A stretch of DNA of 64,000 nucleotides. It comes from Pseudomonadota bacterium. GTDB taxonomy: Bacteria > Pseudomonadota > Gammaproteobacteria > Burkholderiales > SG8-39. Position numbers and translations under genes: made by a program. This document shows, in pieces, positions 50,776-64,000 of the stretch. The notes below the pieces were generated by a model. It searched no databases. It saw only the letters and a program-made list of their open reading frames with translations, and was not told the origin of the DNA. How positions within the stretch are numbered: the stretch's first letter is position 1; the number at the start of each line of letters is the position of its first letter. The stretch covers positions 186,001-250,000 of the forward strand of contig CANGMI010000002.1 of assembly GCA_947455195.1 (NCBI GenBank), written 5' to 3'.

Positions 50776-51831
50776 TCACCCCAGCGCGCTCGCCGCCTCG
50801 ATCAGCGCCCTCACCGTATGCGGCTCGATGCCACGGGTGATGAACACGAGGCGCGTGCTGTGATCCTCGCCGGGCCAGGCCGCGAGCGGTGCCGGTGGGT
50901 GGAAGACATGCTGCACGCCTTGCACCACCACCGGGTCGCCCTCGACGTTGACGATGCCCTTCACGCGCAGGAGGTCGGGCCCGCGCAATGCGGTGAGGAG
51001 TTCCATGGCAGCGGTAAAGACAGGCCAGGTGAAGGGCGTATCGAAACGCAGCGAAAAGGTCTTGATCGACCGATCGTGAATGCCCCCCAGGCGCGATCCC
51101 AGGTAGGCGGGCGCTGACGGATCGCCTGTCCTTTCGCCGGTCTTGCTGCCCGTATCAATGCCAAGAAACCGGTCGACGGCGACCGCATCGCTGCGCGCGT
51201 TGCGAAGTCCCAGATCGAGCAGGAAGGCCGGCTCGACCGCACCCATCAGCACGTCGCGCTGGGCGGCGTTGGGGTTGAGTTGATGCAGTTCAGCGCGCAG
51301 TGCCTCGTGTTCGGCGGTGGCGGCCAGATCGGCTTTGGTGACCAGCAGTCGATCGGCAATCGCTACCTGCTTCACCGCTTCGGGCTGTCGCTCGAGGGTC
51401 GAGCGGCCGTGCACCGCATCGACCAGCGTCACGATGCCATCGAGCCTGAAGTGCGTGCCGATGAGGGTGTCGAGCGCGAAGAGTTGTACCACGGGCGCCG
51501 GGTCGGCGAGGCCGGTGGTTTCCACGATGACCCGGTCGAAATCGAAGACCGCGCCCGAGCGGCGCTGGGCAAAGAGTTCGCGCAGGGTTTCCTGCAGGTC
51601 GGTGCGTACCGAACAGCAGATGCAGCCATTGGCCAGCAGCGTCATGTTCTCGGTCTGCACGCTGACCAGATCGTGGTCGATGCCCACTTCACCCAGTTCG
51701 TTGATGACCACGGCCACCCGATTCATGCCCGGGTGGGTGAGCAGGTGCGCGAGGAGGGTGGTCTTGCCCGCACCCAGAAAGCCGGTGAGTACCGTGACCG
51801 GGATGCGCCCGGCCAGCGCGTCGCGCGGCAT
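50776..51831 (-). CDS. CobW/COG0523-type metal-chaperone GTPase (351 aa)
   Basis: G3E-family GTPase involved in delivering or managing a metal ion. Walker A TGFLGAGKTT (16-25), switch region VVINELGEVGIDHDLV, the metal-binding GCICCSVR (Cys70, Cys72, Cys73), the Walker-B-like VIVETTGLADP and the G4-type VTKAD are all present, followed by a CobW C-terminal domain with a His-containing insert. The track frame opens at 52242 in the neighbour; the ATG at 51831 begins 2 bp after that gene's stop. Metal (Zn, Co or Fe) not determinable. Confidence 0.9.
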   Translation of the reverse strand: MPRDALAGRIPVTVLTGFLGAGKTTLLAHLLTHPGMNRVAVVINELGEVGIDHDLVSVQTENMTLLANGCICCSVRTDLQETLRELFAQRRSGAVFDFDRVIVETTGLADPAPVVQLFALDTLIGTHFRLDGIVTLVDAVHGRSTLERQPEAVKQVAIADRLLVTKADLAATAEHEALRAELHQLNPNAAQRDVLMGAVEPAFLLDLGLRNARSDAVAVDRFLGIDTGSKTGERTGDPSAPAYLGSRLGGIHDRSIKTFSLRFDTPFTWPVFTAAMELLTALRGPDLLRVKGIVNVEGDPVVVQGVQHVFHPPAPLAAWPGEDHSTRLVFITRGIEPHTVRALIEAASALG

Positions 51832-51833
51832 GG

Positions 51834-53087
51834 TCAGAGGTCGAGTTCCAGGCAGTAGAGACCGCCCACGAACCGATCGACCGCATAGACCACGCGCCGC
51901 TCGTCGACGAACACGTCGTTGAACTGGATGGCGCCCACCGGCGAGAGTTTCGGTGCGCCCGGCACGAAGTAGGCCACTTCCTGCGGCTGGAAGGGGTTGG
52001 TGAGATCGTAGGCGCGGATACCGGCATTGAAGAAGCTGCCGATGATGAGGTTGTCGGAGCGGAACGAAGTCTCGATCGGCAGGTTCTCGTGCAGGTTGTG
52101 GGCCCCGAAGCGCCCGCCGCGGCGGGCGAACGCGCCATGCGGTGGCGGCGGGAAGGTGCCGATCGGTACCGGGTTGGTCTCGACCCGGTTGTCGACCACC
52201 CAGACGAGCTTGGGCCAGTCGGCGCCGTCGTCCATGATGCACTCGTCACTCACGATGAGGAGATCGCGCTCGAAGAGCGGCAGCACCGTGTGGCAAAAGC
52301 CGTTGAAGGGCGGCGAGTAGCGCCACTGGCTCACCATCTTCGGCCGAGACATGTCGGCGATGTCCAGGACGATGGCACCGCCATCGATGTAGCCCACGTA
52401 GGCACGGTCGGGACGCTGCGGAAACACATTGGTGTTGTGGGCGCGAAATCCGGCGTCGAACTTGCCGGCGAGGCGGGATGGGGGTGGTGCGTCGTCGCCT
52501 TCGCGGGTCCCGGGCAACCACCAGCGCCCGACCTCGCGCGGTCGGGTGAGATCGCTCACGTCGACGATGCGGTAGAACTGATCATCGAGCGGATTGCGCG
52601 GCTGGAAGTCGGGCGCACCGCTGGACATGTGTACGGTCTTGCCATCGACGAACCAAAGCGCATGCACGCCGCGCGAGTGCGGGCCCGAGCAGTCGAAGTG
52701 CGAGATGAGGCGCGGGGTCTCGGGCACCGACACGTCGAACAGGTCGAAGCCTGCCGGCTTCAGGCCCACGGTGCTCGTCTGATAGGCCACGGCCATCACG
52801 TCACCCACCACGTCGAGCGAGTTCGAGCGCATCTTGGGGTGTGGCAATTCGGTCTGCACCACCATGCGCGGGTTGCGCGGGTCGGTGACATCGACGCCGG
52901 TGAAGTTCTTGGGCGCGCCTTCATGGGCGAGCCACAGGATGCGGCGGCCGTCGCGGGTCTTTTGCAGCGACATGCCTTCGCCCAGACCGCCGAAGCCACC
53001 CAGATCGTGGTGGCCAATGAGCCGCATGTTGAGCGAGAGGGTCTGGTCGGCGCGGGCGGCCGGGGTAGGGCTGGAGAAGGAGGCCAT
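51834..53087 (-). CDS. LVIVD-repeat beta-propeller protein (417 aa)
   Basis: Built of repeats of the LVIVD type, seen as VDVTDPRNPRMV, LFDVSVPETPRLIS, IVDVSDLTRPREVGRWW, VLDIADMSRPKMVSQW and AYDLTNPFQPQEVAYF, which together should form a seven-bladed propeller. Several His residues (LAHEGAP, FRAHNTNVF, GFCHTVLP, GAHNLHENLP) are placed as in metal-containing propellers, so a metal site is plausible. No signal peptide. First gene of a two-gene unit with the CobW GTPase 2 bp downstream. Biochemical role unknown. Confidence 0.8.
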   Translation of the reverse strand: MASFSSPTPAARADQTLSLNMRLIGHHDLGGFGGLGEGMSLQKTRDGRRILWLAHEGAPKNFTGVDVTDPRNPRMVVQTELPHPKMRSNSLDVVGDVMAVAYQTSTVGLKPAGFDLFDVSVPETPRLISHFDCSGPHSRGVHALWFVDGKTVHMSSGAPDFQPRNPLDDQFYRIVDVSDLTRPREVGRWWLPGTREGDDAPPPSRLAGKFDAGFRAHNTNVFPQRPDRAYVGYIDGGAIVLDIADMSRPKMVSQWRYSPPFNGFCHTVLPLFERDLLIVSDECIMDDGADWPKLVWVVDNRVETNPVPIGTFPPPPHGAFARRGGRFGAHNLHENLPIETSFRSDNLIIGSFFNAGIRAYDLTNPFQPQEVAYFVPGAPKLSPVGAIQFNDVFVDERRVVYAVDRFVGGLYCLELDL

Positions 53088-53171: not shown

Positions 53172-54263
53172 ATGCAAGAGCAACGCCTTCTGTCCGATTC
53201 TGATGCGGGTTCACCTGCCCTCTATCGTGCAGCAGCCACGTCATCAGCCGCGCGTCCCGCGTCATCGGGTCGGATGCTGCGGCGAAGTGCCCTCGCGGGC
53301 TTCGTCGCACTGCTTGCTCTGCCCGTGCTGACCGCGGCGCCGGCTGTTGCCCAGATGGGCAATGCATCATATCCCAGCCGCCCGGTGAAACTCGTCGCAA
53401 CCTATCCGCCCGGTGGCAGCTCCGACCTGATGGCTCGTATTCTCGCGCAGAAGCTCGCCGAGCTCTGGGGCCAGCAGGTCATCGTCGACAACCGGGCCGG
53501 TGCGGCCGGCTCGATCGGCATGGAATACGCAGCCCGCCAGCCGTCCGATGGCTACAGCTTCGTCATCGGCAATCTGGGGCCGGCCGCCGTCAATCCGCTG
53601 ATCTCTCGCCTCACCTACGATGTGGCGCGCGATTTTCTGCCGGTGTCGATGATCTGCACCGGGCCCAATATTCTGGTGGTGAACAGTGCCTCATCGATGA
53701 AGACCCTGCAGGACGTGCTTGCCGAGGCGCGTACGCGTCCGGGAACGCTCAACTTCGGCTCCGGCGGGGCTGGCAGTCTGGCCCATCTGGGCGGCGAGAT
53801 GCTCAAGCGCGAGGCGGGCATCGACATCACGCACGTGCCCTACAAGGGCGGCGTTCTGTCGGTCAACGATCTGCTGGCGGGGCAGGTGCAACTGGTTTTC
53901 TCCGATGCGCTGCCGGTCATGCAGCACATTCGTGCCGGTCGGTTGCGGGCCATCGGTACGACGGGTGCGCAACGCTCGCCGCTTGCGCCCGACATTCCGA
54001 CGTTTGCCGAGCAGGGCATGACCGGGCTGGTGGCAACCAACTGGTGGGGAGCCTTGCTGCCCGCGGGCACCCCATCGGTCATCGTCGATCGTCTGCATGA
54101 CGATCTGGTGCGTGCACTCGCCACCGCCGAGGTGCGCGAGAAGTTCGCGTTGCTTGGGGTCGAGGCTGTCTCGTCCACGCCCGACGCCTTCAAGGCCTTC
54201 ATGCAGGCAGAGACGATGCGGTACGCACGACTGGTGAAAGAGGCGGCGATCCGCGGCGAGTGA
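53172..54263 (+). CDS. Bug/TctC-family periplasmic binding protein
   Basis: Core YPSRPVKLVATYPPGGSSDLMARILAQKLAELWGQQVIVDNRAGAAGSIG is typical. The signal peptide MLRRSALAGFVALLALPVLTAAPAVAQ could start at an ATG at 53274 (329 aa). The ATG at 53172 has a GGGGAG about 10 nt upstream and adds 34 residues in front, so both starts are possible. Mature domain full length, ending KEAAIRGE. Divergent from the LVIVD-CobW unit across ~85 bp and convergent with the next Bug gene. Ligand unknown. Confidence 0.88.
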   Translation: MQEQRLLSDSDAGSPALYRAAATSSAARPASSGRMLRRSALAGFVALLALPVLTAAPAVAQMGNASYPSRPVKLVATYPPGGSSDLMARILAQKLAELWGQQVIVDNRAGAAGSIGMEYAARQPSDGYSFVIGNLGPAAVNPLISRLTYDVARDFLPVSMICTGPNILVVNSASSMKTLQDVLAEARTRPGTLNFGSGGAGSLAHLGGEMLKREAGIDITHVPYKGGVLSVNDLLAGQVQLVFSDALPVMQHIRAGRLRAIGTTGAQRSPLAPDIPTFAEQGMTGLVATNWWGALLPAGTPSVIVDRLHDDLVRALATAEVREKFALLGVEAVSSTPDAFKAFMQAETMRYARLVKEAAIRGE

Positions 54264-54279: not shown

Positions 54280-55368
54280 CTACTCGGCCTTCGCCCCGGC
54301 ACTTTTCACGACGGCCGCCATGCGGTCAAAGTCGGTCTTGAGGTAGGCGCCAAAGGCCTCCGGGCTCATGATGCGCGGCTCGATGCCCTGCTTGTTGAGC
54401 CTGTCGATCACCTCGGGCCGGCGCAGGAGTTTTTCGACTTCGCTGCTCAGTCGATCGATGGCAGCGCGCGGCATGCGTGCCGGCCCCAGAATGCCGAACC
54501 AGCTCTCGAATTCATAACCGGGCACGCTGGCGGCGATGGCGGGGCTGCCCGGGAAGAACCGGTTGGGCGTCGTGCTGGTGACCCCGATGACCCGGACCCG
54601 CCGATCGTTGATGAACGGCAGGCCGACGTTGTTGGTCACGACAAGCATGTCGGCACGGCCGGCCAGTACCTCGGTCATGGCTTCACCCATGCCCTTGGTC
54701 GGAATGGCCACGGCATCGACGCCGACCATGCCGAAGAGGTAGGCGGCCGACAGATGCCCGGCACTGCCCACCCCCGAGGTCGCGTAGTTCATGCGTCCCG
54801 GGTTGCTGCGTCCCCAGGCAACCATGTCGGCCACCGTCGTGAACGGGGCATCGCCGCGGGCAATCGCCACGTAGCTCGACATGCCGACCATGGCAACCGG
54901 TGTGAAGTCGGCCAGCGCATCGTAGTCGAGCTTGCGGTAAAGGCTCGCATTGATGTTGTGGCTGGCAGCGGCAAGGATGAGGGTGTAGCCGTCGGGTGCG
55001 GCACGAGCGACAATCGATGTGCCCAGCGTTCCGCCGGCGCCGCCGCGATTCTCGACCAGCACGTTCTGCCCGAGCGCGTCGCCCAGATCGGCATTGATGG
55101 CACGTGCAGCGGTGTCCTGCGCGCCACCGGCGGTGAACGGGATGATCAGCCGGATGGGTTTGATCGGCCAGGTGCTGGCACTCTGGGCGACGGCATCGCT
55201 GGCGGCGAGGGTCAGAGCGAGTGACGCCAGAGCCAGTGAGGCCAGAGCCAGCGACGCGAGGGGCGCCACGGCGATTGGTGCCAGGGCGACAGGACGCCGG
55301 GCGGCAGCCATCCGGGCTGCGATGGCCGAGCGAAGCGAGTGCCAGGGAGAGGGTTGACAGGCGGTCAT
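54280..55368 (-). CDS. Bug/TctC-family periplasmic binding protein, last gene of the HyuA-Bug operon (362 aa)
   Basis: Mature part from TWPIKPIRLIIPFTAGGAQDTAARAINADLGDALGQNVLVENRGGAGG, a normal Bug fold. The leader is unusually long, with a basic start and a hydrophobic core made of the peptide repeat LASLALASLALASLAL (encoded by a 15-nt tandem repeat), before the cleavage-like AVAQS. Start ATG 55368 with GAGGAG 6 nt upstream, overlapping the stop of the dehydrogenase gene. Probably binds a substrate of the catabolic operon it belongs to; membrane components must lie elsewhere. Confidence 0.9.
   Translation of the reverse strand: MTACQPSPWHSLRSAIAARMAAARRPVALAPIAVAPLASLALASLALASLALTLAASDAVAQSASTWPIKPIRLIIPFTAGGAQDTAARAINADLGDALGQNVLVENRGGAGGTLGTSIVARAAPDGYTLILAAASHNINASLYRKLDYDALADFTPVAMVGMSSYVAIARGDAPFTTVADMVAWGRSNPGRMNYATSGVGSAGHLSAAYLFGMVGVDAVAIPTKGMGEAMTEVLAGRADMLVVTNNVGLPFINDRRVRVIGVTSTTPNRFFPGSPAIAASVPGYEFESWFGILGPARMPRAAIDRLSSEVEKLLRRPEVIDRLNKQGIEPRIMSPEAFGAYLKTDFDRMAAVVKSAGAKAE
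55211..55255. repeat. three 15-nt tandem repeats in a signal-peptide coding region
   Basis: GTCAGAGCGAGTGAC, GCCAGAGCCAGTGAG and GCCAGAGCCAGCGAC in direct succession. The copy number changes the hydrophobic core of the Bug signal peptide by five residues per unit without shifting the frame. Confidence 0.75.
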
Positions 55369-56327
55369 GCGATGCTCCTCGTGCGTGGGTAGCGCTTTCG
55401 ATCCGGCTTGCGGTGCACGCCCGACATGCCTTCGAGGACGGCACACACCGCAGCGGTATCGGCCTTGGCGAGCCCTGCGGACATCGCTGCGTTGTAGATC
55501 GGCGCGCTGGCTGCAAAGAGTGGTGCTACCACCCCCAGCGAGGTGACGAAGTCACCGATGATCTTCATGTCTTTCTGCCAGACCTCGACTTTCATGGTGG
55601 CCTCGCTGTAGTCGTTCTCCACCATCATCGGGCCGCGTACGCTGAACATGCGCGAGCCACCGGCGCCACCGGCAATCACCTTGAACATCAGGGCCGGGTC
55701 GATGCCTGCCTTGCCGGCGAGGGCGAACGCTTCACCGGCGGCCACGTTGTGGATGGCTACGAGCAGGTTGGCAATGAACTTCAGTTTCGAGCCGTTGCCG
55801 AACGGGCCGACATGGAAGTGAGCGCTGCAGAACCCGTCGAACACGTGCTTGCAGCGCTCGTAGGCGGCCTCGTCGCCGCTCGCGTACAGCAGCAGGTCTT
55901 TCTTTCGCGCCTGGGCTCCGGTGCCCGAGAGCGGGCAATCGAGCAGGACAATATCGCTGGCAGCAAGACGCGCGCGTGCGCTTTCCTTGTCTTCGATCGG
56001 GAGGGTGCTCGTCTCGACGATGAGGGTGCCCGCAGCGAGCTTGCCGGCCAGAGCCTCGACGGTAACGGCGAGAGCCTTGGCCGAGGGCAGCGAGGTGATG
56101 ATGACGGCTGCCTTGCGCGCGGCGCCGAGCGCGGTGGTCGAGGGTGTGCCGCCGGCCTGGCGCAGCGCTTCGCGCGCAGCCGGGTCGATGTCATGGCCGC
56201 TGACCGCGAACCCGGCCTTCAGGAGGTTGCTGCTCATGGCCGATCCCATGATGCCCAGGCCAATCATGCCGACCGTGGGTTTGGTGGGCGTTCGGACTGC
56301 CTTCGGCGCTGAAGCGTGCTTTGTCAT
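55365..56327 (-). CDS. beta-hydroxyacid dehydrogenase, HIBADH/tartronate-semialdehyde reductase type (320 aa)
   Basis: NAD(P)-dependent oxidoreductase. TVGMIGLGIMGSAMSSNLLKAGF is the dinucleotide site, with an N-terminal extension of about 17 residues. The substrate-binding CPLSGTGAQA diverges from the usual DAPVSGG, and the catalytic helix GNGSKLKFIANLLVAIHNVAAGEAF carries the lysine. The departures suggest a substrate other than 3-hydroxyisobutyrate. It lies 19 bp after the Mo-subunit gene and overlaps the Bug gene by 4 nt, so it belongs to the same operon. Confidence 0.88.
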   Translation of the reverse strand: MTKHASAPKAVRTPTKPTVGMIGLGIMGSAMSSNLLKAGFAVSGHDIDPAAREALRQAGGTPSTTALGAARKAAVIITSLPSAKALAVTVEALAGKLAAGTLIVETSTLPIEDKESARARLAASDIVLLDCPLSGTGAQARKKDLLLYASGDEAAYERCKHVFDGFCSAHFHVGPFGNGSKLKFIANLLVAIHNVAAGEAFALAGKAGIDPALMFKVIAGGAGGSRMFSVRGPMMVENDYSEATMKVEVWQKDMKIIGDFVTSLGVVAPLFAASAPIYNAAMSAGLAKADTAAVCAVLEGMSGVHRKPDRKRYPRTRSIA

Positions 56328-56346
56328 TGCGGTCTCCTGGGGCGCC

Positions 56347-58737
56347 TCAGACCCGCCCGAGCGCAGCGAGGATGCGCTCGGGGGTAAAGGGCTGTACCGT
56401 CACGCGCGCCGCGAGCGGGGCGAGTGCATCGTTGATGGCGTTCATCACGGCAGCGGGTGCGCCGGCGGTGCCGGCCTCACCGGCACCTTTGGCGCCGAGT
56501 TCGGATGTGCGGGTCGGTGTCTGGACATGGCCGCAGACGATGTCGGGCATCTCGCCGGCCATCGGTACCAGGTAATCGCCGAGTTGCGCATTGAGCATCT
56601 GGCCTTCTTGGTCGTAGCGACACTCCTCGAAGAGCGCCGCGCCCAGACCCTGGACAACACCACCGCGCAACTGCTCATCGACCAGCAACGGATTGATCAC
56701 CGTGCCACAATCCTCGACGCACCAGTGCCCCAGCAGTTTCACGAACCCGGTATCGATGTCGACTTCGACCCATGAGGCCTGAATGCCGTTGGTGAAGGCA
56801 AACGCGTAGTCGCGCGGCACGTAGTGGCGGGTCACCATGAGCTCGGACTGGAATCCGGCCGGCAAGGTGTCGGGGCGGTAATAGCAGCTGCGTCCCAGTT
56901 CGGCGAGGGTGAGGAGTGAACGCAGCGTGAGTCGGTCGATGACGGCATCGTCGGCGACATCGAGCGTGGCGCGGTCGCAGGCGAGTATCGCGGCGGCCGC
57001 GTCGAGGATGTTGGCGCGCAGTGCACGGCCTGACTGCAGGACAGCCTCGCCGCCGATGCCGGCACCGCGAGATCCCCAGGTGCCCCCGCCGTACGGCGTG
57101 GTTGCGGTATCTCCGGTTATGACGCGTACCTTGTCCATCGAGACACCAACCGTGTCTGCCGCGATTTGCGCGAAGACGGTCTCGGTACCCTGGCCCTGTT
57201 CAGTGACGCTGCACAGGACGGTGAGGGCGCCTGTGGGTTCCAGACGCAGCGTGGCGCCGTCCTGCGAGGAAATGCGTGCGCCACCCACGCCATAGAAGGC
57301 CGCCGAGGGGTTGGTCACCTCGATCATCGCAGCGAGCCCGATACCCCGATAGCAACCCCGTTCGCGCGCGCGCGCCTGATCGGCGCGCAGGGCTTCGTAG
57401 TCCATCAGTTCGAGCAACTTGTCGAGACACTGATGGTGCGACAGTTTCTCGAAGCGGATACCGGAGGGGAAGGCATAGGGATAGGCGTCATCCGGGATCA
57501 GGTTGCGGCGCCTGAATTCGACCGGATCGATCGACAGTCGCTGCGCGGCCAGATCGACGATGCCCTCGGTGATTGCCACCGCAATGGGATGCCCCACCGC
57601 CCGGTACTGGCAGGTGACGTTCTTGTTGGTGAACACCGCATGCATGCGCGCCCGGTAGTGACTGTGCCGGTAGGGACCTCCGGTGAGGTTCACGACCTGA
57701 TTGCCTTCGATGCCGCTCGTGCGCGGATAGACCGAGTACGGGCCGATGGCGGTGAGGTCGCGCAGATCGAAGCCCAGAATGCGCCCGTCGCGGGTTGCAG
57801 CCAGCCTCACCGTGGCCTTGTGCTCGCGGGCATGGATGTCCGACACGAAGGATTCCATGCGGTCTGCCTGAAACTTCACCGGACGGCGCACCAGCATCGA
57901 GACCGCGGCGGTGCACATTTCGTCGGGGTACACGTGCACCTTGATGCCGTAGGCCCCGCCCACGTCATGACAGATCACCCGCACATTGGCCTCGGGGATG
58001 TCGAGGTGCCGGGCGAGGATGTCGTGAATCATGTGCGGCGCCTGGGTGGCGTGGTGCACGGTCAGGCTGTGCTCGGCCGGGTTGTAGTCGGCAAGGATGG
58101 CGCGGCCTTCCGGGCAGACGCCGGTATGCCGGCCGAAGTGGAAGGTCTCCTCGACGACCAGGTCAGCCGCCGCGAAGATCGCGTCGATGTCACCGGTGTC
58201 GACGGTCCGCTCGAAGCAGATGTTGTCTCCCAGTTCGGGGTGCAGCACGGGCAGGCCTGCGAGCGCAGCCTCCATGTCGACGAGTACCGGCAGGGGCTCC
58301 CACTGAATCTCGACAAGGTCGCGCGCGTCCTCGGCTTCGGCGCGGGTTTCACCGACGATGGCAACGACCGGTTCGCCTTGCCAGCAAGCCCGCTCCATGG
58401 CGAGCGGGTACTGCGTGGGTGAGCGGATGCCCTTGAGGTGCCCGAGCACCCCGACCCAGGGCTTGCACACCTGCGCGATGGCCGGCCCGTCGAAGACGGC
58501 GATGATGCCTGGCGACCGACGGGCCCGACTGCTGTCGATGCTGACGATGCGCGCGTGCGCGTGCGGGCTTCGCACGAACACCACATGGGCGAGTCGTGGC
58601 AGGCGCAGGTCATCGATGTAGACCCCACGCCCTTGCAGCAGGCGCTTCGCGTTGGGGCGCGGGTCGGCGCGACCGACATGCCCGCGGGACAGGGTCTGGT
58701 GTTCTCCCTGAACAGGCAGTTCGTCGCGGGCAGTCAT
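56347..58737 (-). CDS. molybdenum hydroxylase large (Mo-binding) subunit, xanthine-dehydrogenase family (796 aa)
   Basis: Catalytic subunit of a three-subunit molybdopterin hydroxylase that uses water to hydroxylate a carbon centre. The small a/b hammerhead domain begins RLLQGRGVYIDDLRLP. Mo-cofactor loops: HDVGGAYGIKVHVY (usual GGGFGxK), QYRAVGHPIA (form II xanthine-dehydrogenase-like proteins have AYRGAGR, true CO dehydrogenases AYxCSFR) and the catalytic Glu754 in KGAGEAGTAG. It is therefore not CO dehydrogenase. Start ATG 58737, overlapping the 2Fe-2S subunit by 4 nt. Substrate unknown; N-heteroaromatics, aldehydes and aromatic CoA esters are typical. Confidence 0.92.
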   Translation of the reverse strand: MTARDELPVQGEHQTLSRGHVGRADPRPNAKRLLQGRGVYIDDLRLPRLAHVVFVRSPHAHARIVSIDSSRARRSPGIIAVFDGPAIAQVCKPWVGVLGHLKGIRSPTQYPLAMERACWQGEPVVAIVGETRAEAEDARDLVEIQWEPLPVLVDMEAALAGLPVLHPELGDNICFERTVDTGDIDAIFAAADLVVEETFHFGRHTGVCPEGRAILADYNPAEHSLTVHHATQAPHMIHDILARHLDIPEANVRVICHDVGGAYGIKVHVYPDEMCTAAVSMLVRRPVKFQADRMESFVSDIHAREHKATVRLAATRDGRILGFDLRDLTAIGPYSVYPRTSGIEGNQVVNLTGGPYRHSHYRARMHAVFTNKNVTCQYRAVGHPIAVAITEGIVDLAAQRLSIDPVEFRRRNLIPDDAYPYAFPSGIRFEKLSHHQCLDKLLELMDYEALRADQARARERGCYRGIGLAAMIEVTNPSAAFYGVGGARISSQDGATLRLEPTGALTVLCSVTEQGQGTETVFAQIAADTVGVSMDKVRVITGDTATTPYGGGTWGSRGAGIGGEAVLQSGRALRANILDAAAAILACDRATLDVADDAVIDRLTLRSLLTLAELGRSCYYRPDTLPAGFQSELMVTRHYVPRDYAFAFTNGIQASWVEVDIDTGFVKLLGHWCVEDCGTVINPLLVDEQLRGGVVQGLGAALFEECRYDQEGQMLNAQLGDYLVPMAGEMPDIVCGHVQTPTRTSELGAKGAGEAGTAGAPAAVMNAINDALAPLAARVTVQPFTPERILAALGRV

Positions 58738-59234
58738 GCCTCGCTGGCTCCGGCGGTTGCGCGGCGCGAGGCGAGCGTGGTTTCGATGGCGTCCACGATG
58801 GCCTGGTAACCGGTGCAGCGGCAATAGTTGCCCGAAATGTGCTCGCGGATTTCCTCGCGGGTGGCCGAAGGCGATGTGGCGAGGAGTTCGCCAGCGCAGA
58901 GCAGCATGCCCGGTGTGCAGAAACCACACTGCAGCGCATTGCGCTGGTGGAAGGCGTGTTGCAGGTCGGCCAGTTCACCCGAATCGCTCACCCCTTCGAT
59001 GGTCTCGACCGACCGTCCGTCGGCCTGCACGGCCAGCATCAGGCAGCCGCGCACGATGCGACCATCGACCCGCACCGTGCAGGCGCCGCAGACGCCATGC
59101 TCGCAACCGAGATGCGACCCGGTGAGATCGAGCGCTTCGCGCAGGAAATCCACCAGGTGCTGACGCGGTTCGACCCGCTTCCTGACGACCTGCCCATTCA
59201 CGGTCAGGCAGATTTCGGCTTCAGGCAATGGCAT
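58734..59234 (-). CDS. molybdenum hydroxylase 2Fe-2S subunit (166 aa)
   Basis: Electron-transfer subunit. The plant-type ferredoxin domain binds one cluster through Cys44, Cys49, Cys52 and Cys64 (GCEHGVCGACTV...GC). The helical domain binds the second through Cys103, Cys106, Cys138 and Cys140 (CGFCTPG, CRCTGY). All eight ligands are present. Start ATG 59234 (MPLPEAEICLTVNG); the track extension to 59354 lies in the FAD-subunit gene, with which it overlaps by 14 nt. Confidence 0.95.
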   Translation of the reverse strand: MPLPEAEICLTVNGQVVRKRVEPRQHLVDFLREALDLTGSHLGCEHGVCGACTVRVDGRIVRGCLMLAVQADGRSVETIEGVSDSGELADLQHAFHQRNALQCGFCTPGMLLCAGELLATSPSATREEIREHISGNYCRCTGYQAIVDAIETTLASRRATAGASEA

Positions 59235-60102
59235 GAGGAGCGGCTCCGCCGGATAGCAGTTGGGTGACGGCTCGATCGAGCAGAACACCGGCCAGATGCT
59301 GCCGGGTAGCCGCACTCGTATACAGATCGGAGCCGGGTTGAAGATCGTGAGCAAGTGCGGCTCGCGCAGCCTGCATCACGGACGCTGCCGGTGCTCGACC
59401 TTCGAGCGCTGCCATGGCCTGGCGCGCGAGCATCGGCACGGGGCCTGCACCGACGTAGGCAAGGGCCACCTCATGCAGGAGACCCTCGGCGGGTCGGGCG
59501 AGGAGAGCCAGGCCGACGATGGCGTAGTCGCCCCGACGCCGCGAGAGTTCGAGAAACACACTGCGACGGGCCAGGGGCGTCACCGGAAATTCAATGGCGA
59601 CCAGGATGTCGGTGGGCGTCAGATCGGTTTCGTAAAGGTTGCGGAAGAACGTCCGCGCGCGAACGCGTCGCCCACCGGCAGGGCCTTGAATCACGATGGT
59701 TGCATCGAGCGCGACACAGCAGGCTGGCCATTCGGCTGCCGGGTCAGCGAACGCAACGCTGCCGCCTATGGTGCCGCTGTTGCGGATTGCGGCGTGAGCG
59801 ATCTGCGGTGCCGCCTGGGCAAGGAGTGGCAGGTGCTGTGCAACAAGGGGCGATCGTTCGATCTCGCGGTGCGTGGTCAGTGCGCCGATCGTGACTGTCG
59901 AACCGTTCAGGCGGATGCCCGACAGACCCGGTATGCGACTGATGTCGACGAGGAGCTCGGGCGCAGACAGCCGCATGTTGAGCGTGGCCATCAGCGTCTG
60001 TCCGCCGGCAATCAGCCGGGCCCGATCACCCAGTTCGGTGAGGTGAGCCAGGGCTTCCTCGACGCTCGCCACTCGCACATAGTCAAAGGCGGATGGTTTC
60101 AT
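59221..60102 (-). CDS. molybdenum hydroxylase FAD-binding subunit (293 aa)
   Basis: Flavoprotein subunit (CoxM type) that passes electrons from the 2Fe-2S clusters to an acceptor. FAD-binding motifs LIAGGQTLMATLNMRL (31-46) and NSGTIGGSVAFADPAAE are intact, as is the C-terminal CO_deh_flav_C region. No extra cluster-binding insertion. The gene starts at the base next to the SDR stop codon. Subunit order FAD - FeS - Mo is the common one in this family. Confidence 0.95.
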   Translation of the reverse strand: MKPSAFDYVRVASVEEALAHLTELGDRARLIAGGQTLMATLNMRLSAPELLVDISRIPGLSGIRLNGSTVTIGALTTHREIERSPLVAQHLPLLAQAAPQIAHAAIRNSGTIGGSVAFADPAAEWPACCVALDATIVIQGPAGGRRVRARTFFRNLYETDLTPTDILVAIEFPVTPLARRSVFLELSRRRGDYAIVGLALLARPAEGLLHEVALAYVGAGPVPMLARQAMAALEGRAPAASVMQAARAALAHDLQPGSDLYTSAATRQHLAGVLLDRAVTQLLSGGAAPHAIA

Positions 60103-60849
60103 CTATCGCCCGCCAGTCACATCGATGGTGGTACCGTGGATGTAGGATGCGGCACCCGAGGCGAGCCACACGACCGTCTCGGCGACTTCTTCGGGCGATC
60201 CGGGCCGGCCGAGCGGAATGCTCGGTGCGACGCGCCGGATCATGTCCTCGCCCCCATGCACTTCGTGCAGCGTGGTCGTGATGAGACCGGGGCGCACCGA
60301 TACGACGCGCACGCCCTCGGCACCGACCTCCCGGGCGAGACCCGCCACCATGCTGTCGATGGCCCCCTTGCTCGCGGCGTAGTGGGTCTCTTCGGGCAAG
60401 CCCCCGTGCCGAGCGGCCGCGGAACTGATCTGGACCACCACGCCGCCGGGGCCTCCGTGGCGCGTGGACATGCGCCTGATGGCCTCGCGCGTGCAGTAGA
60501 ACGTACCGAAGACGTTCACCGCAAACATGCGCTCGATGACATCGGGCGTGATGCTGTCGGCGCGGCACTGGCGCGAGACGAGACCGGCGTTGTTCACGAG
60601 CACGTCCACCCGCCCGAGACGCTGGTCGACCTCGGCGAAGAGTCGCGTGCAATCGTCGCTCGATGCCACGTCGGCCTGAACCGCGATGGCCTTTCCACCC
60701 GAGCGCTCGATGTCGGCTACCACCTCGGCCGCGGCGGCGGCATTCGATGCGTAGTTGACGCAGACCACGTAGCCGCGACGTGCAGCCAGTCGGGCGATCG
60801 CGGCACCGATGCCGCGACCGGCCCCGGTGATGATCATGACTCGGGACAT
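60103..60849 (-). CDS. short-chain dehydrogenase/reductase (248 aa)
   Basis: Classical SDR. Cofactor motif TGAGRGIG (8-15), NNAG near 86-89 and the catalytic Ser142/143-Tyr157-Lys161 (HYAASKG). VNYASNAA after the second strand suggests NADP(H) or NAD(H) equally. It would oxidise a secondary alcohol or reduce a ketone. Sits 10 bp after the HyuB-fusion gene and touches the FAD-subunit gene. In acetophenone catabolism an alcohol-oxidising SDR feeds a HyuA/HyuB-type carboxylase; this order recalls that. Confidence 0.9.
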   Translation of the reverse strand: MSRVMIITGAGRGIGAAIARLAARRGYVVCVNYASNAAAAAEVVADIERSGGKAIAVQADVASSDDCTRLFAEVDQRLGRVDVLVNNAGLVSRQCRADSITPDVIERMFAVNVFGTFYCTREAIRRMSTRHGGPGGVVVQISSAAARHGGLPEETHYAASKGAIDSMVAGLAREVGAEGVRVVSVRPGLITTTLHEVHGGEDMIRRVAPSIPLGRPGSPEEVAETVVWLASGAASYIHGTTIDVTGGR

Positions 60850-60859
60850 GGACTTCCTC

Positions 60860-63223
60860 TCAGGTCAGGTGCAGTTCGATATCGTGCAGGATGTCATCGC
60901 CCGCCCGTGCAACCTCGTTTTCGATGAGGGCGCCGCAGGCGGGGCAGAAGAACTGGCGAAACACCGGCTCATCGTCAATATACCGGCGCCAGTCGCCGAT
61001 GTTGGGGTTTGCGTGGCGGATATCGTGATCCTCGCGCACGCACTCGAGTTTGTAGTTGCCCTTGATCGGCCCGAGGTCGGCAGCGCATTTCACGCAGCAG
61101 TAGCGCGGCTTGCCACGCTCGCGGCGCACCGCGATGTTCTCGGTGGCCCGGGCCACTTCGGCACCCTTGAGGCGTTTCACGCTGCCGGCCGGGCGACAGC
61201 GGCGCGAGCGCAGGCTCTGGCGAAGGCTGGTGGTTGCCGCCTCGTCGAGCCTGCGCTCGCGAATGACGACCCCGTAGATGTCGCGCGCTGCCTCGACGGA
61301 CACCGCGTGGTGGAGGACGACATCCTCGAGCACCCGCTCCGCTTCGCGCTCAAGAGGGTCACCGAAGCCGGCAGCGGCTGACCAGATGACCGAATACACG
61401 TCAGCGGGCGCCTGTTCGAAGTTCTCCTGGCGCAGTTGCAGGGTAACTTCGCGGCCCCGCACCTCGGCGATGTCCGAGGGCATCTGGCCGCGAGCGAAGC
61501 GCTCGGCGATGTCGGTTTCCTCGCGAAACTGGTACACGTTCACGCTGCCGGGGTACCCGCCCATGATGCCCGGGGCGGTCGGTGTGGCATTGCCCGAGGA
61601 CAGGGTATCGTGGGTGATCGAGGTCGTGCCATGCGGGATGAAGCATGATTCGGCTGACATTCCGCCGCGCCAGCGCCCGGCGCCGCCCGAGTCGATGACC
61701 TCCTTGCGGTAGAGAAAGAGGAGCGGAAAGGTCTGCTCGGTGTGCTCCACATTGGGCAGCTTGCAGATCGGTGTGCGCGACTGCCCGCCGGTATTGATGC
61801 CGTCACCGGTCGAGAAGGCGCCGATGGCACCGCCAATCGGGTCGACCAGCAGGTAACCGTAGCGCTCGCCCCACTGGTCTGTCCCGCGAAAGAGGGTCGC
61901 GGGCCATTGGCTCGTACCCCCGATGCACATGATGTCGCGGCGCATGTCGGGGTCGCTGAAGAGCAGTTTCGAGAGCACGTTGTAAGTGGGGTACAGCGAG
62001 ATCTCCATCGCCTGTACCGGGGCAGTGGAGACCGAGGCGGGGTAGCTCGCGCAGTTGAAAGTGCCCGGCGTGGGGTCGAAGCGCACATGTCGCAGCGCAC
62101 CCCCGATGGCGAAGTACTGGTCCCAGCAGAGCAACTGGTTCAGGGCCACCATGATCGAACCGCGCCAGCCCGAGTAGGTGGCGTTCATCGCCCCCTCCTG
62201 ATCGGCCGTGCCTTCATTCTCGAAGACGAGTTCGGTGCCTTGCTTGCGCAAGGTGAGCATCACGCGATGGCTGCGCCGATCGCCGGGCCGACAGCACTCG
62301 ACGTAGGTGCGCTCCCGATAGATGCCATCGGGCAGGCGCTTGATCTTGTCGAGGAAGGCCTGCTCGCCATGGTCCAGGATGCGTCGCATGACGCCCTTCA
62401 CGACCTCCGGGCCGTAGCGTCGCACGAGGGCCAGCACCCGGTCGCGTGCGGTGATGTTGCCGGCCAGTTGTGCCCGGAAGTCGAGCGCCACCGCCTGTGG
62501 CTTGCGACTCGCGCGAAGGTACATTTCCTCGATGTCGCGGCGAATCTCGTTGCCCTCGATGATCTTCACCGGCGGGATGCATATGCCCTCTTCGAAGGCG
62601 CTCTCGGCCGAGCCGCAGAAGGACGACGGGGTGATGCCCCCGATGTCGTACTGGTGCAGGCAGTTGGTGACCCAACAGAAGAGCTCGCCCTCCCAGAACA
62701 CCGGGCAGATCAGCATGACGTCCTGCTGATGCGCGGCACCCACCCAGGGGTCGTTGGCGAGAAACATGTCGCCATCCCGGATGCCCGGGTTGTCGCTGCG
62801 GTTCTCCAGGATCCACTTCACCTGGGTGTCGGTGACCCCCGACATGTACTGCATGTAGGGGCCGAAATAGACGAATTCGCCATCCTCGGTGAGGATCGAC
62901 GGATTGAGGTCGAGAGCGTACATTGCGACCGGCGAACCCGAGATGCGCTGGATGGTGGCCCCGTGTTCTTCGTTGACATGCCACAGCGCGTGCCGGATCA
63001 CCTCGTAGGTGATCGGGTCGATCGATCGCCTGGCCTTGCGCTGCAGCTTCAGCGATGGCGAGATGCGCAGGGTTTCCGGCGGGACATAGCCCTGTCCTCG
63101 GCCGTCGAAGAGGGCCGGATCCATCTCGCTCACCTTGGGCCGGGCAGAGGTTCGAGTGGACGTTCGCTCTGCGGGGCGGGCAGCAGGCCGGGCGGGGCCG
63201 CCCTTCGAGGTACGTGCGTTCAT
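60860..63223 (-). CDS. HyuB-type subunit fused to an acetone-carboxylase-gamma-like zinc domain (787 aa)
   Basis: Residues ~55-650 are a hydantoinase B/oxoprolinase domain (ITYEVIRHALWHVNEEHGATIQRISGSP, GDMFLANDPWVGAAHQQDVML, QWPATLFRGTDQWGERYGYLLVDP). The family usually stops near 550-600 residues. Here a linker is followed by ~100 residues with CCVKC (709-713), Cys728, YIDDEPVFRQFFCPACGALIENEV (Cys760, Cys763), which looks like the small zinc subunit of acetone or acetophenone carboxylases. This favours an ATP-dependent carboxylase over a hydantoinase. The N-terminal ~50 residues are basic and low-complexity. Overlaps hyuA by 4 nt. Confidence 0.88.
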   Translation of the reverse strand: MNARTSKGGPARPAARPAERTSTRTSARPKVSEMDPALFDGRGQGYVPPETLRISPSLKLQRKARRSIDPITYEVIRHALWHVNEEHGATIQRISGSPVAMYALDLNPSILTEDGEFVYFGPYMQYMSGVTDTQVKWILENRSDNPGIRDGDMFLANDPWVGAAHQQDVMLICPVFWEGELFCWVTNCLHQYDIGGITPSSFCGSAESAFEEGICIPPVKIIEGNEIRRDIEEMYLRASRKPQAVALDFRAQLAGNITARDRVLALVRRYGPEVVKGVMRRILDHGEQAFLDKIKRLPDGIYRERTYVECCRPGDRRSHRVMLTLRKQGTELVFENEGTADQEGAMNATYSGWRGSIMVALNQLLCWDQYFAIGGALRHVRFDPTPGTFNCASYPASVSTAPVQAMEISLYPTYNVLSKLLFSDPDMRRDIMCIGGTSQWPATLFRGTDQWGERYGYLLVDPIGGAIGAFSTGDGINTGGQSRTPICKLPNVEHTEQTFPLLFLYRKEVIDSGGAGRWRGGMSAESCFIPHGTTSITHDTLSSGNATPTAPGIMGGYPGSVNVYQFREETDIAERFARGQMPSDIAEVRGREVTLQLRQENFEQAPADVYSVIWSAAAGFGDPLEREAERVLEDVVLHHAVSVEAARDIYGVVIRERRLDEAATTSLRQSLRSRRCRPAGSVKRLKGAEVARATENIAVRRERGKPRYCCVKCAADLGPIKGNYKLECVREDHDIRHANPNIGDWRRYIDDEPVFRQFFCPACGALIENEVARAGDDILHDIELHLT

Positions 63224-64000
63224 GTGCGGTCTCCGAAGCGGATCTCGAAGTTGCCGAAGGCATCGACCACGAGCGAGCGCCCGGGATGGATGACGACGGT
63301 CGTGTCGGTGGTCTCGACGACGGCCGGGCCCGCGATCGTGTTGCCCGGTACGAGGTGGGCACCATCGAAGATGGGGGTCGAGACCTTGCGCCGCAAGGAT
63401 TCCCAGTAGACCGGACGCGGTGCACGGTGGGCTGCCTTGGCGATGCGTCTGGTCAGTCGTTCTGCGCAGACCAGGTTGGGGCGTAGCGTGGGAGCCGAGG
63501 CGCGCAGGCGCAGGGTGACGATCTCCAGACGCGCATCGCGATACGATGAGCCGCGTCCGTACAGTTGTTCATAGCGTTCGTAGAAGCGCTCGCGAAGTCC
63601 TTCGAACTGCGAGGCCTTGAGGCGACGCTCGGGCAGGGTGACCTCTACCTCGTTGATCTGGCCGCGGTGACGCATGTCGAGCGAGAACTGGTAGCGGCGC
63701 CGCGCGCGGGCGATGCCGTCCTGATCGAGTTGCGCGATCGCGCGCGCTTCGAGCGTGGCCAGGGTTTCGTTGATGCGTTTCGCGTCGAAGGGGGATACCT
63801 GGATGTCGACCTGCTCGTGAAGGTGCAGGATGTCTGCCGAGGCAGCGCCGAACGCGCACCAGGTCGAGGCAATTTCCTTCTGCGGAATGATGACCCGCTG
63901 CACACCCAGTTCTGCACCGAAGACGCTGGCGTGCGCCGGGCCGGCACCACCAAAGGCGTGCAGCACGAAGTCGCGTGGATCAAAGCCCTTTTCCACGGTC
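63220..64000 (-). CDS. HyuA-type hydantoinase/oxoprolinase/acetophenone-carboxylase subunit, C-terminal part
   Basis: Incomplete: the frame is open to the window edge, and the annotated start at 63996 is only an internal GTG. HyuA proteins are about 690 residues, so roughly the last 260 are present. LHAFGGAGPAHASVFGAELGVQRVIIP is the conserved ATPase-domain end, followed by the C-terminal domain (YEQLYGRGSSYRDARLEIVTLRLRA, AGPAVVETTDTTVVIHPG). It works with HyuB to phosphorylate or hydrolyse amide, or enol, substrates using ATP. First visible gene of the minus-strand operon. Confidence 0.92.
   Translation of the reverse strand, partial: TVEKGFDPRDFVLHAFGGAGPAHASVFGAELGVQRVIIPQKEIASTWCAFGAASADILHLHEQVDIQVSPFDAKRINETLATLEARAIAQLDQDGIARARRRYQFSLDMRHRGQINEVEVTLPERRLKASQFEGLRERFYERYEQLYGRGSSYRDARLEIVTLRLRASAPTLRPNLVCAERLTRRIAKAAHRAPRPVYWESLRRKVSTPIFDGAHLVPGNTIAGPAVVETTDTTVVIHPGRSLVVDAFGNFEIRFGDRT

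Follow-up and report, generated by a model that had tools for sequence, protein, structure and literature searches.

A HyuA/HyuB enzyme with a fused acetone-carboxylase gamma domain in a recurrent, putatively catabolic gene set of Burkholderiales

Background

Which compound is handled by a gene set that places an ATP-dependent HyuA/HyuB enzyme next to a molybdenum (Mo) hydroxylase, two dehydrogenases and a Bug-type periplasmic binding protein? These genes lie at one end of a 64,000-nucleotide stretch of a Burkholderiales genome (GenBank assembly GCA_947455195.1, contig CANGMI010000002.1; C2:186001-250000 in our numbering), referred to here as the window. We have found a known enzyme family as a new variant, in which the gamma domain of acetone carboxylase (Acx) is fused to HyuB, within a 13-gene block whose gene set recurs in other genomes. 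Judged from its sequence, the block has about an even chance of being a unit for the uptake and breakdown of a nitrogen heterocycle by Mo-dependent hydroxylation, ring hydrolysis and ATP-dependent activation by HyuAB.

The few characterised members of the family are either gamma-less hydrolases or gamma-bearing carboxylases. The fused clade pairs the carboxylase architecture with Burkholderiales gene contexts that resemble the ring-opening of nitrogen compounds. It occurs in dozens of species, almost all known from metagenome assemblies alone, and no paper describing it was found in the literature searched: neither a gamma-fused hydantoinase nor a combination of Qor with a hydantoinase turned up there, and on imidase/polysaccharide deacetylase and on dihydroxypyridine clusters it yielded general nicotine and allantoinase papers only. 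Work on the clade would clarify the role of gamma, and might bring to light a route for organic nitrogen or ketones that is not yet on record.

Results

Eight minus-strand genes occupy positions 54280-64000 of the window. Their junctions, recomputed as -4, +10, 0, -14, -4, +19 and -4 nt, match exactly those given by a sequence-only reading of this DNA. The open reading frames (ORFs) have third-position G+C of coding type as well as specific Pfam matches, and the earlier view of a catabolic operon that combines an ATP-dependent HyuA/HyuB enzyme and a CoxMSL-type Mo hydroxylase with dehydrogenases and a Bug protein is supported. No operon protein scored above any NCBIfam equivalog cut-off. The genes are as follows.

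54280-55368, minus strand: Bug1, Bug/TctC-type periplasmic binding protein (PF03401, E=5e-54; start at 55368 with GAGGAG upstream)
55365-56327, minus strand: HIBADH-like beta-hydroxyacid dehydrogenase (PF03446/PF14833; Rossmann motif GLGIMG; catalytic-type Lys in GNGSKLKFIAN)
56347-58737, minus strand: CoxL-type Mo-hydroxylase large subunit (PF20256/PF02738/PF01315; signature QYRAVGHP and GAKGAGEAGT)
58734-59234, minus strand: CoxS-type 2x[2Fe-2S] subunit (PF01799/PF00111; both Cys motifs)
59221-60102, minus strand: CoxM-type FAD subunit (PF00941/PF03450)
60103-60849, minus strand: short-chain dehydrogenase/reductase (SDR; PF13561/PF00106; TGAGRGIG and YxxxK)
60860-63223, minus strand: HyuB, beta subunit fused to a gamma domain (PF02538 at residues 69-623; PF08882 at residues 704-786)
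63220-64000, minus strand: HyuA, ASKHA ATPase alpha subunit, C-terminal part (PF01968/PF05378/PF19278; start at 65331, outside the window)

The C terminus of HyuB matches the acetone-carboxylase gamma domain (PF08882, E=1.2e-9) with cysteines at 710, 713, 760 and 763. The zinc subunit to which the sequence-only reading had alluded is thus present, fused to HyuB. Among relatives from 80 genome loci, 63-96% identical to the focal HyuB, the CxxC...CxxC pattern was retained in every protein whose C terminus lay on the contig, the two exceptions being cut by contig ends, and all four cysteines were invariant across a 39-sequence alignment. The metal tetrad D105/H165/D168/H190 was entirely invariant in a 38-sequence alignment; in the 39-sequence alignment D105, H165 and D168 were invariant and H190 was conserved in at least 90%. 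HyuA retains all of its ATP motifs (DxGGTxTD, DxGGT and GxxPGP; P1/P2/PGP), which are invariant in 32 relatives.

In the AlphaFold2 model of HyuB (mean pLDDT 76.7, parts of the beta core being of low confidence) the gamma region reaches a pLDDT of about 90. Foldseek matched the main body to the beta subunit of acetophenone carboxylase (Apc), Acx (5l9w_A and 5m45_A among the matches), N-methylhydantoinase and caprolactamase B, and matched the tail to the gamma chains of Acx and Apc (5svc_C, 5l9w_C), the Apc gamma match being weak (E=0.016). A gamma subunit occurs in Acx and Apc and not in hydantoinases, and substrate classes are not separable by sequence alone (Weidenweber et al., PMC5214803). 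By its sequence, HyuB differs from an ordinary hydantoinase subunit. Of the two activities envisaged earlier, ATP-dependent carboxylation or amide hydrolysis, the fused gamma domain favours the former over a plain amide hydrolase and strengthens the reading of HyuAB as a carboxylase-type enzyme. The two chemistries may be closer than their labels, because caprolactamase CapAB requires ATP and bicarbonate although its reaction is a hydrolysis (PMC8453981). The best NCBIfam model for HyuA is the caprolactamase alpha subunit (CapA; 574 bits, cut-off 1000); the block holds a single hyuA, and the ApcC and ApcD models score far below cut-off. The focal genome carries five HyuA genes, and a second HyuB (G000:C1:554002-556095; L023/L136) ends in a gamma-like tail in which the four-cysteine motif is incomplete. 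A 28-member ORF cluster antisense to hyuA/hyuB was dismissed as an artefact of a simple gene caller.

Quick trees of HyuA and HyuB place the fused clade at a support of 100 (SH-aLRT) in both, with Acx sequences separate in each; their long branches leave the deep branching order unsure. In the HyuB tree, which did not include caprolactamase B, a branch of support 100 parts the gamma-less hydantoinases from the gamma-bearing proteins (Acx, Apc and fused forms). HyuA did not group with 5-oxoprolinases or hydantoinases, a grouping with the former having been named beforehand as grounds for abandoning the proposal. Next to the fused clade lie haloarchaeal alpha-beta-gamma operons, in which gamma is a separate gene, and gamma-fused forms from actinobacteria; the cysteines have been lost from the Rhodococcus copy.

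The assembly continues past the window edge that cuts hyuA, and was read over C2:238001-275000. The rest of hyuA was found there, its start codon at 65331 being conserved in both close relatives (L024 and L025), and it is preceded, in the direction of transcription, by the following genes (window numbering).

65574-66482, minus strand: PuuE-like gene (PuuE1; polysaccharide-deacetylase family), upstream of hyuA
66602-67369, minus strand: livF, upstream continuation of the block
67392-68129, minus strand: livG, upstream continuation of the block
68126-69079, minus strand: livM, upstream continuation of the block
69076-69951, minus strand: livH, upstream continuation of the block

The full unit is a 13-gene block, livHMGF - puuE-like - hyuA - hyuB::gamma - SDR - coxMSL - HIBADH-like - bug. 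The genes and order of the eight-gene operon proposed earlier therefore stand, and its extent does not, since the window edge truncates the block. Several genes of the upstream part (PuuE-like to livH) overlap by 4 nt, and we infer from the gene arrangement that the 13 genes are probably co-transcribed. The 242-nt gap between PuuE1 and hyuA, a spacer not present in the sister locus L025, is partly occupied by 13.6 tandem copies of a 7-bp unit (GGCACCA/GGCAACA; L006:13394-13488, equal to window positions 65394-65488, just beyond the window). The GGCACCA core has no other occurrence in the genome, and the array was not found in L024 or L025. A promoter scan of L006 returned no sigma-70-like site, fewer than in shuffled sequence, and is uninformative.

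About 150 nt beyond livH a divergent unit begins, with an HsaA-like flavoprotein, a Bug protein and a second PuuE-like protein, followed by a WYL regulator. The flavoprotein has an acyl-CoA-dehydrogenase fold and is nearest to the HsaA monooxygenase (309 bits, below the cut-off of 450). The ABC transporter of the block has no LivK within it, and three Bug proteins lie around it. The Bug protein that had been read as a dedicated ligand binder is present, but the dedicated role is weakened because the block has its own Liv transporter, three Bug genes lie near, and close orthologues of Bug1 occur only in the two nearest genomes.

Gene contexts of relatives were read from stretches of sequence around each locus. 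The exact eight-gene order is confined to three close genomes of the near genus (focal; L024, 96% HyuB identity; L025/G180, 83%). Loss of the order in relatives had been named beforehand as grounds for abandoning the proposal, and outside the near genus the order is indeed lost; what recurs there is the gene set, shuffled around HyuAB. In a genome of another family (L097/G097) HyuA-HyuB-NIPSNAP-SDR-CoxMSL is followed by an alpha/beta hydrolase, an LLM monooxygenase and PuuE1. Four further loci (L035, L042, L047 and L053) combine CoxMSL (63-73% CoxL identity) with LivFGMH in differing orders and orientations, and vary in their PuuE1, HIBADH, LLM and FAD monooxygenase content; L043 and L052 have the partner genes without Cox. 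An extradiol dioxygenase and an FAH hydrolase occur in addition in L035, L043 and L052. Of 399 genomes from the order, 11 have fused HyuB; 9 of these also encode a CoxL with an identity of 60% or higher (a gene present in 21 genomes; p=2e-11), and 7 a PuuE1 with 68% or higher (present in 10 genomes; p=1e-10). Outside the family of the window the values are about 1e-5 for CoxL and about 1e-5 for PuuE1. These hypergeometric figures treat genomes as independent and are inflated by kinship.

Among more distant relatives, Rhodococcus opacus has the order SDR-HyuA-HyuBgamma-SDR-acyl-CoA ligase, and a Haloterrigena locus has AMP ligase and acetoacetate decarboxylase family neighbours. In L095, L098, L100 and L102, fused HyuAB has a divergently oriented member of the beta-keto acid cleavage enzyme family nearby, the L095 copy scoring above the NF053538 cut-off. 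Species labels on the metagenome-assembled contigs of L028, L042, L061 and L101 (e.g. Klebsiella pneumoniae, Candidatus Fonsibacter lacus, Bordetella parapertussis) look wrong because of their tree placement.

CoxL scored 456 bits against quinoline 2-oxidoreductase (1t3q) and 441 bits against carbon monoxide dehydrogenase-type CoxL. A carbon monoxide dehydrogenase identity for CoxMSL was rejected, as QYRAVGHP stands in place of the Cu-binding CSFR loop and scores fall below the NCBIfam cut-offs for that enzyme; xanthine dehydrogenase and glyceraldehyde dehydrogenase identities were likewise rejected on cut-offs and motif. The clade signature QYR[AG]VGHP is common to the family. PuuE1 is nearest to PuuE allantoinase by sequence and fold (TM 0.80, 26% identity), and is a relative rather than a member of that family because it scores 106.5 bits against a TIGR03212 cut-off of 424.6. 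The HIBADH-like protein has the Rossmann domain, C-terminal domain and catalytic Lys of the 3-hydroxyisobutyrate dehydrogenase family; its best NCBIfam model is L-threonate dehydrogenase (191 bits, below the cut-off of 350), and the dehydrogenase-type Lys disfavours an imine reductase.

The FAD monooxygenase of the sister loci is nearest to 2,6-dihydroxypyridine hydroxylase. In Methylobacterium radiotolerans a 66%-identical CoxL, with Liv genes, lies beside two uraH genes, uraD, an allantoin-permease-like NCS1 symporter and a racemase; the FAD partner there reaches 161 bits against 2,6-dihydroxypyridine hydroxylase and 64 bits against HpxO (which we take 3rp8 to be), scores that disfavour a urate hydroxylase. 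The CoxMSL clade is found on plasmids of Dinoroseobacter shibae, M. radiotolerans and Loktanella salsilacus (L228, L229, L230), accompanied by TetR and by TRAP or Liv transporters; the family is therefore available in culture. In Pleomorphomonas, a gamma-less HyuAB pair adjoins a gene annotated as 6-hydroxynicotinate reductase.

To the left of the block the window holds three further genes.

53172-54263, plus strand: Bug0, second Bug/TctC protein, convergent with the block (PF03401)
51834-53087, minus strand: LVIVD-repeat protein (PF08309, weak, 23.0 bits)
50776-51855, minus strand: CobW-type GTPase, metallochaperone-like, adjoining the LVIVD gene (named from sequence alone)

CobW and LVIVD recur together as companions, beside HyuAB in L028, L030 and L125 and beside CoxMSL/PuuE1/Bug0 in L207-L209, where Bug0 recurs next to PuuE1/CobW/LVIVD. 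Bug0 and the LVIVD-repeat protein probably belong to the same functional island.

Discussion

In the proposed route, a nitrogen heterocycle would be taken up through LivHMGF with Bug or another binding protein, and the CoxMSL enzyme would oxidise a ring carbon next to nitrogen to a lactam or imide, whose cyclic amide bond the PuuE-like enzyme may hydrolyse. HyuA would then use ATP, probably with a need for bicarbonate, to phosphorylate an oxo/enol (or imidol) intermediate, and the activated species would move to the HyuB metal site to be carboxylated or ring-opened. The SDR and HIBADH-like enzymes could oxidise or reduce the resulting open-chain hydroxy or oxo acids. The best score of CoxL being to quinoline 2-oxidoreductase, the nearness of the FAD partner of the sister loci to 2,6-dihydroxypyridine hydroxylase, PuuE1, the shuffled recurrence of the gene set around HyuAB, and the M. 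radiotolerans and Pleomorphomonas contexts favour such catabolism. Several points weigh against it. The near equality of the two CoxL scores leaves the substrate class weakly constrained; the extradiol dioxygenase and FAH hydrolase, like the flavoprotein akin to HsaA, occur in these loci or close to them and would fit a carbocyclic aromatic or a cyclic ketone as well; and PuuE-like proteins are part of a broad deacetylase family. In 32 long loci of other lineages HyuAB stands nearly alone (one HIBADH, one CobW), and HyuAB itself need not be a nitrogen-heterocycle enzyme, since most relatives outside the Burkholderiales-like subclade carry it without the partners.

A possible but less probable explanation is a ketone carboxylase route, in which the SDR would convert a secondary alcohol to a ketone, HyuAB-gamma would carboxylate it, in the manner of acetone and acetophenone carboxylases, to a beta-keto acid that is then processed, and the Mo enzyme would act on a side product or ring. 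The gamma domain shared with Acx and Apc, an alpha-beta-gamma order like acxABC, the place of HyuB on the carboxylase side of the tree, its nearest folds (Apc beta and Acx), and the Rhodococcus, Haloterrigena and beta-keto-acid-cleavage neighbours of HyuAB all favour ketone carboxylation. Yet the focal block has no CoA ligase or thiolase, its Liv, PuuE and Mo set indicates nitrogen chemistry, and the top NCBIfam score of HyuA is to caprolactamase alpha. A purine or ureide route appears unlikely. CoxMSL would there be a methylxanthine or purine C8-type dehydrogenase, with the PuuE-like enzyme and HyuAB opening hydantoin-type rings, a cluster logic that matches caffeine C-8 oxidation (cdhABC, tmuM, tmuH, tmuD and a putative trimethylallantoinase; PMC4408171). 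The M. radiotolerans neighbourhood and the relation of PuuE1 to allantoinase are in keeping with it, and the focal genome encodes homologues of OHCU decarboxylase and HIU hydrolase; but these lie on other contigs, no HyuAB locus searched has a uraH or uraD homologue, and the M. radiotolerans FAD partner scores higher against 2,6-dihydroxypyridine hydroxylase than against HpxO. It is very improbable that generic catabolic genes of Burkholderiales are only loosely assembled here and serve no single pathway: its exact order is limited to the near genus, and Bug, SDR, Liv and HIBADH are large families, but coding junctions overlap and the same orthologue set recurs in other orders with strong co-occurrence, outside the family too.

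Among known systems, AcxABC and ApcABCDE share with the focal enzyme the alpha ATPase, the beta metal subunit and its fold, and the zinc gamma domain. The order of acxABC is also alpha-beta-gamma, but the focal locus has it as a two-gene fusion, hyuA then hyuB::gamma. With gamma joined to the beta C terminus and no alpha' or epsilon gene, the focal enzyme departs from both; HyuB identity is about 22-25% on fold alignment, and scores are far below the NCBIfam cut-offs. Apc is encoded by four or five genes, apcABCD(E), and includes alpha' as a further ATPase subunit; the block has no such set. CapAB, N-methylhydantoinase and 5-oxoprolinase share the alpha and beta families, the ATP motifs and the Asp-His-Asp-His metal site, but lack a gamma domain, and the focal clade forms a separate branch in the trees.

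In the anaerobic indoleacetate pathway of Aromatoleum, Mo-dependent oxidation next to the ring nitrogen precedes the IaaCE step. IaaCE, likened here by description, is an ATP-dependent HyuA/HyuB enzyme that opens a lactam (PMC8453981), and it gives the logic of a Mo hydroxylase with an ATP-dependent Hyu lactam hydrolase a precedent; it differs in its partners and in having no reported gamma. The caffeine cluster of Pseudomonas sp. CBB1 (cdhABC, tmuM, tmuH, tmuD, orf1), also compared by description, combines a trimeric Mo dehydrogenase, an FAD monooxygenase and a cyclic-amide hydrolase (PMC4408171), whereas HyuAB-gamma is not named there and the focal locus has no tmuH or tmuD nearby. Quinoline 2-oxidoreductase (1t3q) is the closest solved relative of the focal CoxL, at the 456 bits given above, but has AYRGVGFT at the position of the clade signature.

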